This document shows positions 4,991 through 35,709 of a stretch of DNA of 55,949 nucleotides, piece after piece (within the stretch, counting starts at the first letter, position 1; the number at the start of each line of letters is the position of its first letter). Source of the DNA: a virus. Both the position numbers and the translations under genes were made by a program. The stretch is taken from the IMG/VR virus record IMGVR_UViG_3300047170_000113, positions 1 to 55,949 of that record. One strand, given 5' to 3'. Below the pieces are notes generated by a model, which had not been told where the DNA came from, made no database searches, and worked only from the letters and a program-made list of their open reading frames with translations.

Positions 4991-5005
4991 CCTGTGTCAT
5001 AGAAT
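4977..5005 (+). promoter_or_regulatory. sigma70-type promoter, leaderless arrangement
   Basis: TTGACT, 17-base spacer, TAGAAT. The -10 ends seven bases before the ATG at 5013, so the transcript is expected to begin at or next to the start codon. The -35 boxes of this promoter and the divergent one are the two halves of one palindrome. Confidence 0.65.
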
Positions 5006-5012
5006 AATGGTT

Positions 5013-5240
5013 ATGAGTAGAGAAACTGTTATATTAGAGCTGGCACGGAGTAGGGGGCTACTATTCCCTATCGGCATAAGTACCTCTGCCATTACACAAG
5101 CTTATACGCTCAACGGGTATTTAACTTTTATAATCGCCGATACAAGCATTTATAATCTCTCACTCGAGTACTACCACCGCTTGGAGCAGCAAGTGCGCTC
5201 TAATCTAACTCCATTTGAGAAAGCAGTGCTCGGACTATGA
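5013..5240 (+). CDS. small protein with C-terminal LTPFEKAVLGL motif
   Basis: 75 residues starting MSRETVILELARS and ending NLTPFEKAVLGL, the clearest form of the motif shared by at least eight proteins here. The middle part is a mix of strands and a helix with no recognised family. The start was chosen from promoter geometry; ATG at 5007 is an alternative two codons upstream. The stop overlaps the next ATG. No ribosome site is visible, as expected if the mRNA is leaderless. Confidence 0.65.
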   Translation: MSRETVILELARSRGLLFPIGISTSAITQAYTLNGYLTFIIADTSIYNLSLEYYHRLEQQVRSNLTPFEKAVLGL

Positions 5241-5413
5241 CTCCTTTTCTGCTCTCAATCCTGGTCCTAAGCTTTATCCTCTCAGTTCGTGCCCTGGATG
5301 CTAAGTCGAAGCCCAAAACCCCTTGCAAGCGTCATACTTGGTCTTATGATTCGACGGGGCGCATGTTCTGCGACGTCTGTAAGAACAGTCCCTTTAACGG
5401 AGGCTTGGCATGA
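5237..5413 (+). CDS. small exported Cys-rich protein, 58 aa
   Basis: A 58-residue protein starting MTPFLLSILVLSFILS, a signal peptide with likely cleavage near VRA. The mature part is about 38 residues with one Cys and then CDVC, compatible with a metal site or a disulphide. It is held between two ATGA-type overlaps (stop-start at 5237 and at 5410), which strongly supports translation. Function unknown. Confidence 0.65.
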   Translation: MTPFLLSILVLSFILSVRALDAKSKPKTPCKRHTWSYDSTGRMFCDVCKNSPFNGGLA

Positions 5414-30834: not shown

Positions 30835-31028
30835 TTTCCATTTCTCTTTTCTAGCCCAAGGACCGCAGCTTCAAACTTGGTTAGGTCCTCAGGAAATCTT
30901 TCGCAATCTAAGCAATACCTGTAATCACGGCATAGACCAAAAAAACACCGGGGAGTTCTCCTGTAAGCTTCTTTAAATGCAGCAAACATAGAGCTTGCGG
31001 TTGCGGTTGCGTAACTATTATTCGCCAT
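30813..31028 (-). CDS. small Cys-rich protein with LTKFEAAVLGLEKR motif
   Basis: 71 residues starting MANNSYATATASSMF. The middle has four cysteines (CFFGLCRDYRYCLDC), a potential zinc site, and the segment DLTKFEAAVLGLEKR is a close copy of the motif that ends other small proteins in this genome, here followed by nine further residues. It overlaps both neighbours. Function unknown. Confidence 0.65.
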   Translation of the reverse strand: MANNSYATATASSMFAAFKEAYRRTPRCFFGLCRDYRYCLDCERFPEDLTKFEAAVLGLEKRNGKWQLSTK

Positions 31029-31296
31029 CGGGGTCCTCGGGTTTTAGGTTACTCCCGTTTAGGGGCTCAAAGCTGGTCGTGCGTGACGCCATGAATCCGT
31101 GAGTGCCCAGGATCGGCGATAAGAACGCAGCATAAACACCACCGTCGGTGTGGGGGACGGACACCACGTGGTTTGCCACCGTCACCGTCACCCCGTCAAA
31201 TGCAAACTTCAAAGCCGCTACCGTCACTGCGATAGCCGTAAGCGTCAGCATAAGATCGGGGCGGCCAGAGACGGGGTGTTTCAGTAACCAGTTCAC
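31018..31296 (-). CDS. membrane protein, 92 aa
   Basis: GTG start at 31296 (GTGA overlap). A hydrophobic segment spans residues 16-38 (LMLTLTAIAVTVAALKFAF) and a second weaker one follows. The C-terminus is polar. Holin-like topology is possible given neighbouring small membrane proteins, but there is no diagnostic feature. Confidence 0.6.
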   Translation of the reverse strand: MNWLLKHPVSGRPDLMLTLTAIAVTVAALKFAFDGVTVTVANHVVSVPHTDGGVYAAFLSPILGTHGFMASRTTSFEPLNGSNLKPEDPDGE

Positions 31297-31388
31297 TGGG
31301 TTTGAAAAATGATGGCAAGCAGGAATATCAGTCCCACCGCAATCACCGTCCCTCCGGTGTAGAGGAGGATTTCGTTAAAGATTTTCAT
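31293..31388 (-). CDS. single-span membrane peptide, 31 aa
   Basis: 31 residues starting MKIFNEILLYTGGTV, with a membrane span over residues 12-28. Its ATG overlaps the upstream stop and its TGA overlaps the next GTG. A gene this small is credible because both junctions show coupling. Function unknown. Confidence 0.5.
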   Translation of the reverse strand: MKIFNEILLYTGGTVIAVGLIFLLAIIFQTQ

Positions 31389-31771
31389 TAATGCACCTTC
31401 TTGCTAACGGGTTGAGAGACAGGTTTGATCGTACAGTAGTACTCGATTTCTTTACCGCTGTAGTTGTAAAGAGCGGCTTCGAAACCTAAAGACACCGCTT
31501 CTGCAATGTCTTGCTTCACAGAGAGGAGATTTGCTTGCGTGAATTTCATAAGCTCTTCTTTACTATTCACGCTATCGGTTTTAGCAGGCGTTCGGCTTAG
31601 AGCAGTGATTGCCATACTACCAACGAAGCTTGAAAGGAAGTTGTTTAGAAGCTTTCTCAGTACCGCTGGGTCCTTCTGCTCTTTTTGCATGTTCACCATA
31701 ACAAACAGCTCAGAGAGCATTTGCTTTGAAAAGCTTTTAATCCAAGTGTGGGTTTTGATGTCCTCAGTCAT
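31388..31771 (-). CDS. hypothetical protein, 127 aa
   Basis: Starts MTEDIKTHTWIKSFSKQML. Mostly helical with a hydrophobic central segment (LLNNFLSSFVGSMAITAL) that could be buried or membrane-associated. Four-base overlap with the upstream gene. No family recognised. Confidence 0.6.
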   Translation of the reverse strand: MTEDIKTHTWIKSFSKQMLSELFVMVNMQKEQKDPAVLRKLLNNFLSSFVGSMAITALSRTPAKTDSVNSKEELMKFTQANLLSVKQDIAEAVSLGFEAALYNYSGKEIEYYCTIKPVSQPVSKKVH

Positions 31772-31995
31772 TTTTTAATTTCCCAATGGGAAACACACTG
31801 ATTAGGCCCAGTTTGAACCGTCTGGCCGGAAGGCACAAAAATAGTTGGATTTAAGGGTAGCATACTTTTCTTAGCCACCAGCTCTCGCAAGTCGTTAGCA
31901 GCGTCGCTTACAGCGTGCCAATCTTTTTCATCCACTTTCATTTTTAAATAATTAATCATAGTTTCAATTCTATATTCAATTTCTTGTAAACTCAT
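31768..31995 (-). CDS. hypothetical protein, 75 aa
   Basis: Starts MSLQEIEYRIETMINYLKMK; a helical hairpin in the first 45 residues and a flexible Pro/Gln-rich tail. Coupled to its neighbours at both ends by start-stop overlaps. No family recognised. Confidence 0.6.
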   Translation of the reverse strand: MSLQEIEYRIETMINYLKMKVDEKDWHAVSDAANDLRELVAKKSMLPLNPTIFVPSGQTVQTGPNQCVSHWEIKK

Positions 31996-32099
31996 TGCCC
32001 TAACACCACACGGACTAAACTTGAGACGATCACCATGGCTAGCAAGGACCCTGCAACGCTAAAGGCACTCAGTAGAATCCAGAATAAAAAAGTTTTCAT
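31992..32099 (-). CDS. single-span membrane peptide, 35 aa
   Basis: 35 residues starting MKTFLFWILLSAFSVAGSLL, almost entirely a membrane span with a short Arg-containing end. Its ATG overlaps the zinc-ribbon stop upstream and its TGA overlaps the downstream ATG. Function unknown. Confidence 0.55.
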   Translation of the reverse strand: MKTFLFWILLSAFSVAGSLLAMVIVSSLVRVVLGQ

Positions 32100-32236
32100 T
32101 AGAAAAACACAGCCTCTTCTTGTTTCCCGCACCGAGTGCAAGTTCTCGTTTTCCTACCTAGCTCTAAAAACAGAGATTTCACTCCGTTCTTACTCCAGTC
32201 GCCCCATTTGTGAAAAAACCAACATTTCCAGTTCAT
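32099..32236 (-). CDS. zinc-ribbon protein, 45 aa
   Basis: 45 residues starting MNWKCWFFHKWGDWSKNG and ending RTCTRCGKQEEAVFF. The pattern C-x3-H-x2-W ... C-x2-C-G-K is a known small zinc-ribbon type in bacteria and phages (Cys, His, Cys, Cys ligands). TAGAGG lies close before the ATG. It is the first gene of the long minus-strand operon that leaves the promoter hub and has a ~98-base leader with a strong hairpin. Confidence 0.65.
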   Translation of the reverse strand: MNWKCWFFHKWGDWSKNGVKSLFLELGRKTRTCTRCGKQEEAVFF

Positions 32237-32263
32237 AACCTCTAGTCACTCGAGTGGGAGAAA

Positions 32264-32317
32264 ATGCCGGTAGGTAGAAGGGAGGTGGGAAGTAGGGGGG
32301 ATCTACTCTACCGGCAT
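32264..32317 (-). promoter_or_regulatory. leader hairpin before the minus-strand early operon
   Basis: Inverted repeat of 15-16 bases with one bulge: ATGCCGGTAGAGTAGA pairs with TCTACCTACCGGCAT around a 23-base loop that is pyrimidine-rich (CCTCCC) on the RNA strand. It lies in the predicted 5' leader between the promoter at 32341 and the ATG at 32236. No T-run follows. It could control stability, translation or act as a processing site. Confidence 0.6.
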
Positions 32318-32340
32318 CCAAGGAGGGACCGTTCTTAGCC

Positions 32341-32369
32341 ACTATGGCATAGGCGCTACCTGGATGCAA
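32341..32369 (-). promoter_or_regulatory. sigma70-type promoter of the long minus operon
   Basis: Minus strand TTGCAT, 17-base spacer, CATAGT. The predicted transcript starts near 32334, about 98 bases before the first ATG. Confidence 0.6.
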
Positions 32370-32409
32370 GGGGAAAAAATTAATGCGGTAAACCGCTATA
32401 ATGTTCAAT

Positions 32410-32438
32410 TTGACAGGACCTGTTTATTTTGATAAGCT
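32410..32438 (+). promoter_or_regulatory. putative sigma70-type promoter in the hub
   Basis: TTGACA, 17-base spacer, TAAGCT on the plus strand. No coding gene follows for more than 500 bases, so it would transcribe the hairpin-rich region. Confidence 0.5.
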
Positions 32439-32461
32439 TTAGGGAAAAAATTAGTACAATT

Positions 32462-32490
32462 AAATTAACATTTGCATTGACTTTTGTCAA
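32462..32490 (-). promoter_or_regulatory. putative sigma70-type promoter, divergent partner
   Basis: Minus strand TTGACA, 17-base spacer, TAATTT. Its -35 is the right half of TTGACTTTTGTCAA, the same layout as the divergent pair at 4977-4990. Confidence 0.5.
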
Positions 32491-32506
32491 GGATTATGCC
32501 TAAAGT
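32477..32506 (+). promoter_or_regulatory. putative sigma70-type promoter before the non-coding stretch
   Basis: TTGACT, 18-base spacer, TAAAGT. Predicted start near 32513, directly before a set of short stems and with no coding gene until 32998. Confidence 0.5.
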
Positions 32507-32512
32507 GGTAAT

Positions 32513-32625
32513 AACGTCGATGCGTAGCCTGTAAAGACGGTAAACCAGGCAAGGTCCAGGAACCTAATAAGTGCTGGCACTAGTAAATTCGACAGCTGTG
32601 TCAAGTGACCAATTTTTGTTTTCGT
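32513..32625 (+). ncRNA. candidate small structured RNA
   Basis: Directly after a putative promoter, several short complementary pairs are nested or adjacent: GTCGA (32516) with TCGAC (32589), GCCTG (32527) with CAGGC (32546), AGGT (32552) with ACCT (32562), AGTG (32570) with CACT (32578). They could form a multi-branched fold ending before ATTTTTGTTTT at 32612-32622, a terminator-like T tract. No tRNA features and no known RNA family were recognised. The stems are short, so chance is not excluded. Confidence 0.35.
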
Positions 32626-32863
32626 AGTTATAGTAGTGGGTCATGGTAGGCAGTAATAGTGGGGTTTCTAGTAGATTTAATAGCGGGTAGTGGCTACAGT
32701 TACCACTACTGCTATCGTAACAGTTTTACCTAGGGGTAGCGGCACTAGGTTTAGAGTACAGGTAATACCTACATGTACTGAAGCAAGAGCGGTAGTAATA
32801 GCGTTTCCCCTTACTCGCGTCCGTTGAGTAGGTAGGGGAATGCCGCTCCTATGCCCTGAAACA
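32626..32863. other. gene-free region with inverted repeats
   Basis: No supportable gene on either strand. It contains GTAGTGG...CCACTAC near 32685-32707, an AGTACA...TGTACT pair near 32754-32779, and a larger nested inverted repeat at 32787-32848 (GAGCGG/CCGCTC, TTCCCC/GGGGAA, TACTC/GAGTA in order). The low-complexity frames present on the minus strand come from the repeats that follow. Confidence 0.6.
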
Positions 32864-32935
32864 GTAACCGCTACCGTAAGCGCTGCCGTAAGCGCTGCCG
32901 TAAGCGCTGCCGTAAGCGCTGCCGTAAGCGCTGCC
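32864..32935. repeat. 12-bp tandem repeats (iteron-like)
   Basis: Five perfect head-to-tail copies of GTAAGCGCTGCC (32876-32935) preceded by one degenerate copy GTAACCGCTACC (32864-32875). Each unit has the palindromic core AGCGCT. The array ends 14 bases before the -35 of the promoter for the gene at 32998. Iterons of this kind bind initiators or regulators; unequal exchange may change copy number. Confidence 0.85.
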
Positions 32936-32949
32936 GCAACCAAATATCC

Positions 32950-32978
32950 TTGACTAGGTGCCCACTACCTGCTATAGT
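32950..32978 (+). promoter_or_regulatory. sigma70-type promoter of the plus-strand cluster
   Basis: TTGACT, 17-base spacer, TATAGT, near consensus. Its leader of about 13 bases contains TGGAGG, a good ribosome site for the ATG at 32998. Confidence 0.75.
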
Positions 32979-32997
32979 TAGTACTACTGGAGGATTT

Positions 32998-33255
32998 ATG
33001 AATAAAATCGATAAGTTAACTAAACAATTAGGAATTGAGAAGGTAAAAGAACTGGAAGCCTTATCCAAGGAACACCTGGAGCAGGTAATCATTACGGCGG
33101 AAAAGGCTATGAAGCTTGCTAAAGAAGAAATTGAAGCTAACCCCCGCTACCAGGAGCTGAAAGAGAGCCTGGGCGCCTTAACTGCGGGGCTTAAAGAAGT
33201 CAACGGCCGCCAACGAGCTTTAATCCAAATGGCTCTTATCTTACTCGGAGAATAG
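32998..33255 (+). CDS. coiled-coil protein, 85 aa
   Basis: Starts MNKIDKLTKQLGIEKVKELE; nearly all helix with heptad-like spacing and a hydrophobic end (MALILLGE). The ATG at 32998 follows TGGAGGATTT; an upstream in-frame start would lie inside the promoter. First gene after the hub promoter, so probably early. No family recognised. Confidence 0.7.
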   Translation: MNKIDKLTKQLGIEKVKELEALSKEHLEQVIITAEKAMKLAKEEIEANPRYQELKESLGALTAGLKEVNGRQRALIQMALILLGE

Positions 33256-33259
33256 TACC

Positions 33260-33451
33260 ATGGTCCGCACCCTAGTCCCTACCAAGAATGGAGAACTTTG
33301 TCCTGGCTGCAACATAACAGGCGGCTGTGCCTGCGCTTCGATCGACGACATGTCCTGTGAGCGGTGCCAGATGCATAAAAATCATTGTGTCTGCTTAAGC
33401 GTCCAGAAGGTGCTTAAGGCATGCAGGGCGTCAAGCCGGTACGAAACGTGA
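33260..33451 (+). CDS. double zinc-knuckle-like Cys-rich protein, 63 aa
   Basis: Two similar cysteine blocks: CPGCNITGGCAC (C-x2-C-x5-C-x-C) and CERCQMHKNHCVC (C-x2-C-x6-C-x-C). This suggests two tandem zinc sites made by duplication. A basic C-terminus follows. Four bases separate it from the upstream gene. Function unknown. Confidence 0.65.
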   Translation: MVRTLVPTKNGELCPGCNITGGCACASIDDMSCERCQMHKNHCVCLSVQKVLKACRASSRYET

Positions 33452-33485
33452 TCCAGGTAGACTTTATCAACAAGAGGAAACGAAA

Positions 33486-33797
33486 ATGAACCTGTCTAGG
33501 GATTACACCCAGTATGACTTTAAGCGCATGCTGCATGGTTTTTTGTGGTACACGGATAAGTCAGACCCAGAAACTTGGATTCTTTTAGGCAGGAACGGCG
33601 AAATAGTCACTACGGACAACGGACAGAATTTTACTGTGCTGCTAACAGACCAAAAACTAGCTACCTGCGATTTTCAAGATAAAGTTGAGGGTAACCAGGT
33701 TATTAAGGCTAAGAAGTTTAATATTAGACCTCTGGTAGACCATCTTCAACCTTTCAAAACTTCGATTTTAGAACGAGGTAAAAAACAGCGTTTATGA
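33486..33797 (+). CDS. hypothetical protein, 103 aa
   Basis: Starts MNLSRDYTQYDFKRMLHGFL; a mixed alpha/beta protein with a strand-turn pattern (WILLGRNGEIVTTDNGQNF). AGAGGAAACG precedes the ATG. Its TGA overlaps the next ATG. No family recognised. Confidence 0.65.
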   Translation: MNLSRDYTQYDFKRMLHGFLWYTDKSDPETWILLGRNGEIVTTDNGQNFTVLLTDQKLATCDFQDKVEGNQVIKAKKFNIRPLVDHLQPFKTSILERGKKQRL

Positions 33798-34075
33798 CTG
33801 AAAAACAAGCCTTACAGGATGTTGAAACCATTGAGGAATTTCCCCCGTCCGCCTATGCCCTAGCCACTACCCCCCTAAATGGCATTCCCTATAGCAAAGT
33901 TAATGGCAATCAAGACGGGTTAACTCCAGAGCAAGTGGAGCAAATAAGGGCTTTATCTAAAGGCGCAGTAGAAGTGGGAAAAGGGAGAATTTCTCACGCC
34001 AGGATCGCAGAGCACTACGGTATCGACGTTGGTCACGTTAAGTATATAGCAAATAGAGAGAAAGAGGATAAATAA
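33794..34075 (+). CDS. putative helix-turn-helix protein, 93 aa
   Basis: The C-terminal half (TPEQVEQIRALSKGAVEVGK, then ISHARIAEHYGIDVGHVKYI) fits a helix-turn-helix as in transposase-like and regulator families. The N-terminal 40 residues are Pro-rich and probably flexible. It could regulate the hub promoters, but this is inference. Coupled to its neighbours. Confidence 0.65.
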   Translation: MTEKQALQDVETIEEFPPSAYALATTPLNGIPYSKVNGNQDGLTPEQVEQIRALSKGAVEVGKGRISHARIAEHYGIDVGHVKYIANREKEDK

Positions 34076-34396
34076 ATGAAAAAGTTGTTTTTATTACTAT
34101 TTTTTACCGCTTGCGGTACGGCAGTTCAAGTACCCATTCCAGGGCCGGCGGGACCTCAAGGCCTACCCGGTATTGCAGGCGTGTCCCCGACCCCTGTCCA
34201 GCTCTGTGCCGGCACCACAACCTATCCGACGACTTTCTGTGAGGTGGTTTGGTGCAGTAATGGAAATCTCTATGGCGTTTACAGTGTTAACGACGCCTTT
34301 GCGTCAGAACTGCCCCAGGGCTTATACTCGAGCAACGGCATCAACTGCTCGTGCCAAGTTTTAATCGGTCCCGGCTGTGAGGTAACGCAGCAGTGA
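34076..34396 (+). CDS. lipoprotein with short collagen-like segment, 106 aa
   Basis: Signal MKKLFLLLFFTAC with acylation Cys at 13. The segment GPAGPQGLPGIAG is four to five Gly-X-Y triplets. The C-terminal part has six cysteines (for example CEVVWC and CSCQ), likely disulphide-bonded outside the cytoplasm. It may lie on the inner or outer membrane surface; phage lipoproteins often mediate superinfection exclusion. The stop overlaps the GTG of the helicase. Confidence 0.65.
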   Translation: MKKLFLLLFFTACGTAVQVPIPGPAGPQGLPGIAGVSPTPVQLCAGTTTYPTTFCEVVWCSNGNLYGVYSVNDAFASELPQGLYSSNGINCSCQVLIGPGCEVTQQ

Positions 34397-35709
34397 ACGT
34401 AGTTGTCACGGTAGACAATTCGGTCAGTCGGATCGAAGGTCTTGAGTTTGAGGACTTTAAGAAGTTGAGGGATGACCTGTCCTACACCCCCCCTGCCGCT
34501 ACTAGCTACTACACGGGGAGGCAAGCCTACAAGAAATACCTCGTCGACAAGAAGGGGTACTTCCCCACGGGCCTCTTAAACCGAGTGAAGAAGTTCCTCT
34601 TTCACTGCTTTTCCCCGGAAGTCTACACCCAGGACGACCGTAGAATCAAACCTAATAAGGCCTCTAAACGGCTGTTTAAGCCCACTTTACCCCATCCCCC
34701 ATACCTGGAGCAGGAAAAAGCCGTGGAGGCCGCCATTTCGGCAGATAGAGGGGTTATATCGGCTTGTACGGGGAGCGGCAAAAGCCTCATGATGGCGCTC
34801 CTCATTGCGAAACTCCAGCTCCGAACCTTAGTTATCGTCCCCTCCCTGCACTTGAAAGAGCAACTTAAATCGACCTTCCTGGATGCGTTTGGGTCTTTAG
34901 ACCATATCGTCGTTGAGAACATTGACTCCAATACCCTAAAGTCCCACACCAAGTTTGACGTCTTAATCATCGACGAAGCCCACCACTCAGCTTCCCGGAC
35001 CTACCGGAAGCTCAACCAAACGGCTTGGAAGGGCATTTATCATCGGTTCTTTTTCACCGCCACCCCCTACCGCAACCAAGAAGAGGAGCAAATTCTCTTC
35101 GAAAGCGTCGCTGGCGAGATAGTGTATGATCTACCGTACAGCGTGGCCGTTAAGAGAGGCTTTGTCGTCCCAGTCGAAGCCTACTACATCGAGCTGCCTA
35201 AAACCAAAGTCAAAGGCACGACTTGGGCTCAAGTCTACTCGGAATTGGTCACGAAAAATGTTATCAGAAATGATAAGATTTTTAACCTCCTCTCCCGTCT
35301 CCATGAACAGAAACTGAGCACCCTCTGCCTGGTGAAAGAGATTGCCCACGGGAAAGCCATCGCCCGGGACATCATCGGATTTGCCAATGGCGAGGACGAA
35401 TTCACCAAGATGTACATCAACGCCTTTAATAATCGACATCTCACAACGTTGGTTGGCACTAACGGGGTCCTCGGGGAGGGCGTAGACACCAGGCCAGCGG
35501 AGTATGTGATCATAGCGGGCCTTGGAAAATCAAAGCCTGTCTTCCAGCAGCAAATAGGCCGAGTCATGCGAAAGTACCCCGGTAAAGAGTCTGGCAAGGT
35601 GATTCTGGTCAAGGATGCCTCGCATAAGTGGACGAAGGCACACTTTGCTGCCCAAGTCAAGTACCTACGAGAGGAGTACGGCGTTGAACCAGAAAAAATC
35701 GAAGTTTAA
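34393..35709 (+). CDS. SF2 DNA helicase (UvsW/RadD-like)
   Basis: 438 residues, GTG start at 34393. Motif I SACTGSGKS, motif II IIDEAHH, motif III FTATP, and late motifs VLGEGVDTR (V) and QQQIGRVMRK (VI). The N-terminal ~90 residues precede the first motif as in UvsW-type proteins. It should remodel forks or recombination intermediates, complementing the recombination genes on the other strand. Gene order places it in the plus-strand early cluster. Confidence 0.9.
   Translation: MNVVVTVDNSVSRIEGLEFEDFKKLRDDLSYTPPAATSYYTGRQAYKKYLVDKKGYFPTGLLNRVKKFLFHCFSPEVYTQDDRRIKPNKASKRLFKPTLPHPPYLEQEKAVEAAISADRGVISACTGSGKSLMMALLIAKLQLRTLVIVPSLHLKEQLKSTFLDAFGSLDHIVVENIDSNTLKSHTKFDVLIIDEAHHSASRTYRKLNQTAWKGIYHRFFFTATPYRNQEEEQILFESVAGEIVYDLPYSVAVKRGFVVPVEAYYIELPKTKVKGTTWAQVYSELVTKNVIRNDKIFNLLSRLHEQKLSTLCLVKEIAHGKAIARDIIGFANGEDEFTKMYINAFNNRHLTTLVGTNGVLGEGVDTRPAEYVIIAGLGKSKPVFQQQIGRVMRKYPGKESGKVILVKDASHKWTKAHFAAQVKYLREEYGVEPEKIEV

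Follow-up and report, generated by a model that had tools for sequence, protein, structure and literature searches.

The window analysed here is the whole of an IMG/VR virus record of 55,949 bp from an uncultivated tailed phage. At positions 32237-32997 it contains what the initial annotation had singled out as its largest gene-free gap, and the question that this locus raises is what the gap is for, the options offered being a phage non-coding RNA, an origin of replication or an early control region. When the ORF-poor stretches of the window were ranked, the gap was indeed the longest, with 711 nt without a plausible ORF (codon score >3) versus 419 nt for the next-longest stretch (4991-5409), part of which is filled by a small ORF. 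The window encodes the tailed-phage proteins portal, capsid, terminase, DnaB/primase and a UvsX/RecA-like protein. Its portal protein found no match among 50,697 phage records, and many relatives of the phage are present in IMG/VR. The gap separates a leftward arm with replication and recombination genes from a short rightward arm with a helicase and small genes, and in the relatives the equivalent divergent gap lies between a RecA-like arm and a helicase arm. Judged by the layout of the genes around it, the gap is also a divergent control region of the early type, in agreement with the third option.

We compared six syntenic gaps pairwise and found significant similarity only between the window and the relative L016, plus the close pair L016/L018. 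The window/L016 alignment spans 126 columns, comprising a promoter and ~70 nt after it, and scores z 13.7 relative to dinucleotide shuffles. From this 5' element we built a two-sequence covariance model (R1), which, when searched over loci from a RecA-profile scan, gave one notable match in the divergent gap of a third phage, L140, on the expected strand. The E value of 0.038 would be insufficient alone, without the independent 3' homology: the window and L140 (3685-4022, minus strand, in the syntenic gap) share three collinear blocks, with z values against shuffles of 4.2 for the 5' block, 7.3 for the middle block and 14.5 for the 3' block. Full-length homology is thus based on two phages and that of the 5' element on three. 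Window positions 32237-32450 and the repeats at 32860-32997 have no significant similarity to L140, so that, contrary to random drift of the entire region, the unit is conserved inside and the window flanks are not. Because of these non-aligning flanks and the promoter distance, the unit, for which the initial annotation had suggested a transcript from ~32440 or ~32513, is better placed from 32513 to about 32858, the 5' end being estimated from the promoter distance and the 3' end from where conservation stops. Since the RNA recurs at the same place in L140 and its first 72 nt in a third phage, a real RNA gene is likely, rather than empty control DNA. Judging from sequence comparison, the gap likely encodes an undescribed folded non-coding RNA of ~345 nt. 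The features of the locus are:

32513-32858, plus strand: predicted structured non-coding RNA, ~345 nt, from end-to-end homology with L140 and the consensus fold
32510-32580, plus strand: 5' element of 72 nt with two hairpins, common to the window, L016/L026 and L140
32527-32531/32546-32550, plus strand: helix P1, with G-C, U-A and A-U as the fifth pair in the window, L016 and L140, respectively
32556-32559/32574-32577, plus strand: helix P2, with three compensatory pairs
32573-32665, plus strand: middle domain (conserved block, z 7.3; alifold z -3.9)
32735-32849, plus strand: 3' domain (conserved block, z 14.5; alifold z -4.7)
32477-32506, plus strand: sigma-70-like promoter, TTGACT-18-TAAAGT, from a promoter scan and conserved in L016
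32950-32978, plus strand: separate promoter for the next gene (85 aa), TTGACT-17-TATAGT with TG before the -10, from the scan
32998-33255, plus strand: first rightward gene, 85 aa (ORF, codon score 0.51, own RBS GGAGG)
32864-32936, no strand assigned: 12-bp tandem repeat GTAAGCGCTGCC (TRF: 6.1 copies, 96% match)
32264-32317, minus strand: putative leftward leader/terminator hairpin (folding z -5.9 on the minus strand)

Four promoters had been listed for the gap. The one at 32477 on the plus strand was borne out by the scan and by conservation, and the other three were not found by the scan, which detected 6 promoter-like sites in 31000-34500 versus 3.6 +/- 1.7, no excess. The best site in the region, with a 10/12 match, is that at 32950-32978. 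L016 has the same promoter block as the window at a nearly identical spacing from the RNA start (alignment z 13.7), with the letters TTTACT...TATGCCTATAAT versus TTGACT...TATGCCTAAAGT in the window, and L140 has TTGCAA-17-TGTAGT at the equivalent place. The 5' element follows directly on the promoter. In that element, a lead-in, GUCGAUGCGUA, precedes the hairpins, and the P2 loop ACCUAAUAAG (32562-32571) is conserved. The window and L016 share GUYGAUGCGUAGCCU, AGGCAA and ACCUAAUAAG, and the letters in which they differ preserve both hairpins, for example CCAG/CUGG of P2 in the window replaced by GUAA/UUAC in L016. The covariation score of the 5' element over the three phages was reached by 6 of 500 shuffles.

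A check for covariation in related phages had been proposed. The consensus fold of the window and L140 (RNAalifold) contains 63 pairs, 16 with double changes and none broken, and the alifold energy of the full unit has a z of -5.3 against class-preserving column shuffles; these structure controls lean towards the fold, which came out of the very sequences used to test it, and two or three sequences are a small number. Single sequences are barely more stable than their shuffles (z about -1). In both phages, folding of the plus strand is more favourable than that of its complement by ~20-25 kcal/mol, but the complementary strand has a likewise strong column-shuffle z of -8.2, so that the strand call rests on the promoter, the absolute energy and the G-U pairs. 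The middle domain holds the strip UUAUAGUAGUGGGUCAUGGUAGGCAGUAAUAGUG at about 32627-32660. The 3' domain is built from an 8-bp closing helix, a side hairpin (32755-32779) and a nested hairpin (32805-32840). Seven of its 28 pairs are double-changed, a number reached by 4 of 500 shuffles, and sliding the partners by 1-3 columns left no double-changed pair. The nested inverted repeat described earlier is real, corresponds to the hairpin of this domain (32780-32856; folding z -3.0 on the plus and -2.7 on the minus strand) and is kept in L140 through a change from ACUC/GAGU to ACCC/GGGU. A long-range helix plausibly closes the modelled RNA in each phage in differing registers, GCGUA/UAUGC in the window, CGAUGC/GCAUUG in L140 and UUGAUGCGU/ACGC-U-AUCAA in L016. 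The series of stems at 32513-32625 ending in a T tract, by contrast with the nested repeat, did not hold up, being no stabler than shuffles (z about +1). The tract (32612-32622) is part of an internal loop and has no counterpart in the L140 homologue, and for that reason we do not regard it as a terminator; a small RNA ending there was ruled out.

The possibility that the region hides a conserved protein was also raised. All ORFs within the RNA have negative codon scores (-0.06 to -0.23 bits per codon, compared with a gene mean of 0.30) and none looks coding, the indels in the window/L140 alignment are not multiples of three, and L140 has no ORF of at least 60 aa inside the unit. We rejected a protein reading of the tandem repeat through either of two ORFs, 32677-32943 on the minus strand, with a negative codon score, and 32840-32953 on the plus strand, with a score of 0.34 and lying mostly in the repeats beyond the conserved unit. 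Homology, covariation and non-coding character therefore support the non-coding RNA option. GOLLD and ROOL had been invoked as precedents in type only, and this is how they stand: a search of the window against Rfam 15, whose scope included GOLLD, ROOL, HEARO, group I intron, 6S, RNase P and SRP, gave no match at the gathering score, and at E<=10 the window region, L016 and L140 gave unrelated noise only, so that membership of either family finds no support. A likeness of 32541-32565 to 4.5S RNA, noticed by eye, found none in Rfam either. No similarity match to the region was found among phage and plasmid sequences, including the INPHARED phages; among unrelated viral loci (793 kb) the RNA models gave nothing at E<1, and related and control viral DNA totalling about 1.5 Mb yielded no further copies of the RNA. 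In scans of viral and bacterial collections with the pattern GATGCGTAGCC..CTAATAAG, the matches beyond the L016/L026 contigs look like chance, some falling in tRNA or coding DNA and none showing P1/P2 pairing by eye. At the end of contig L002 (1-277), 18-bp tandem repeats share a GCGCTGCCGTA core; these are not homologous and seem to code for a repeated protein motif of the VYGNA type.

GOLLD and ROOL are structured non-coding RNAs encoded by phages with function unknown (PMC12286853). They differ from the present RNA in their greater length (GOLLD frequently exceeds 800 nt) and in commonly lying close to tRNA islands, whereas here the RNA is ~345 nt and ARAGORN found no tRNA or tmRNA in the window. 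A non-coding transcript of ~800 nt in phage ICP1 likewise arises in a phage-genome gap that lacks ORFs (PMC7567579), but it adjoins the lysis cluster, is longer and was seen in RNA-seq, unlike the RNA predicted here at the junction of divergent arms. For the ~345-nt RNA, the promoter is conserved, the ends are defined and the fold can be tested; because the portal protein is unmatched, the RNA would represent a new family in a group of phages that is so far uncharted. To our knowledge, phage non-coding RNAs of such size are few, and most await a functional assignment.

For the function of this RNA, we somewhat favour a stand-alone, multi-domain molecule acting in trans. The promoter at 32477-32506 would transcribe it as the first product of the rightward, probably early, arm, with the two-hairpin 5' element followed by the middle domain and then the 3' domain, and during infection the RNA would bind a host or phage factor. 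Action in trans is preferred over a leader of one gene because the following gene differs in all three phages: the 85-aa protein in the window, an HNH endonuclease in L016 and another small ORF in L140. A protein similar to the 85-aa product sits in the opposite arm of L016 (9055-9333), indicating that this gene and the RNA are not permanently linked. A stand-alone RNA is also favoured because the next gene of the window has its own promoter.

The main rival to a trans-acting RNA is a put-like antiterminator acting in cis, by which the 72-nt two-hairpin element would bind the elongating RNA polymerase and cause terminator read-through in the rightward arm, the rest being untranslated leader. 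We consider this reading, which is drawn by analogy, rather unlikely. The put RNA of phage HK022 binds the zinc-binding domain of the beta' subunit of RNA polymerase and suppresses termination. The putL and putR RNAs are ~70 nt long with two stem-loops and lie downstream of early promoters, putL right after its promoter (PMC9378689). The 5' element (32510-32580, 72 nt) resembles them in having two covarying helices, directly 3' of a presumably early promoter and only a few nt after its -10, and it is the sole part of the RNA common to all three phages; the lack of any terminator found at the 3' end of the RNA would also suit a leader. However, HK022 carries a related put in both early transcripts, whereas the element occurs here in one copy. 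A second copy in the leftward arm was rejected, as the leftward leader has no similarity to the plus-strand RNA in the window (z -0.4) or in L016 (z 0.6). Unlike in HK022, 270 nt more of conserved structure follow, and such a leader leaves these middle and 3' domains unexplained, as it does the separate promoter of the next gene.

It is quite improbable that the gap is a divergent promoter/operator region only, in which the similarity would reflect conserved protein-binding DNA and recent exchange instead of RNA. The unexceptional folding of single sequences would be expected then, as would palindromes at the -35: TTGAC-TTTT-GTCAA overlaps that of the 32477 promoter and is possibly an operator, and the L016 -35 also has one, AGTAAAG-AATG-CTTTACT. 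Protein-binding DNA does not account for compensatory double changes in long-range helices, with slid controls near zero, nor for 345 nt conserved downstream of the promoter with little upstream in L140. The 12-bp tandem repeats reported earlier are real but lie outside the conserved RNA and are not conserved, L140 having an unrelated 21-nt repeat at about the equivalent place. Weakest is an origin RNA, a structured transcript that would prime replication, the A+T-rich promoter zone and the 12-bp repeats belonging to the origin. The divergence of the arms at the gap, the direct repeats at 32371/32442 in the A+T-rich stretch and the tandem repeats adjoining the RNA might suggest it, but it is very improbable given that neither the repeats nor the A+T-rich zone is conserved, that cumulative GC skew turns near 36 and 40 kb without a clear turn at 32.5 kb, and that most relatives lack the RNA in an identically placed gap.

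Beyond a stand-alone RNA acting in trans, we tentatively suggest, with a little less than even confidence, a new and modular phage RNA family, in which a common 5' two-hairpin element would be joined to exchangeable 3' parts and act in trans early in infection, with an HNH endonuclease gene next to it in one phage. L018, whose left side is very like that of L016, carries a different sequence 3' of the promoter, which argues for exchange of a module between these close relatives. L016 5398-6165 (the two-hairpin RNA and the HNH endonuclease gene) has been swapped against L018 3585-4000 (another short sequence with hairpins), and this has the look of a module exchange in which the HNH enzyme may have assisted.

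A second element of the gap is a leftward hairpin that recurs in relatives and bears an anti-Shine-Dalgarno-like CCUCC motif. In the window, it has a 10-bp stem and a C/U-rich 34-nt loop with CCUCC, a second CCUCC just 5', and it stops 27 nt short of the start codon of the first leftward gene. Of 16 syntenic gaps, 10 have a leftward stem of 10-15 perfect pairs whose distance to the first leftward start codon is 15-54 nt. All eight G+C-richer gaps (the window, L016, L018, L033, L132, L140, L143 and L150) have a CCUCC or CUCCC, located either within the loop or immediately 5' of the stem, and the stem sequences are wholly different among the eight save for the close pair L016/L018. The hairpin lies directly before the RBS in the window, L033 and L143. 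Several hairpins have a T run after them and, beyond it, a promoter-like site (for example in L132 and L150), and these may therefore end a short leftward RNA. We infer that the hairpin is a terminator or attenuator of the leftward arm, the CCUCC motif perhaps having an anti-Shine-Dalgarno role.

Elsewhere in the window, seven small ORFs, at 1578(-), 5205(+), 30884(-), 35870(+), 36406(+), 36584(+) and 55340(-), have in common the motif LTxFExAVLGLE, located within 12 residues of the stop in six of them. Three of the seven also share SYPFSHKFLVSYSYDCAMDVLPLF... or its later part, plus variable Ala/Asn/Ser repeats. The motif is possibly a common tail tag of small phage proteins.
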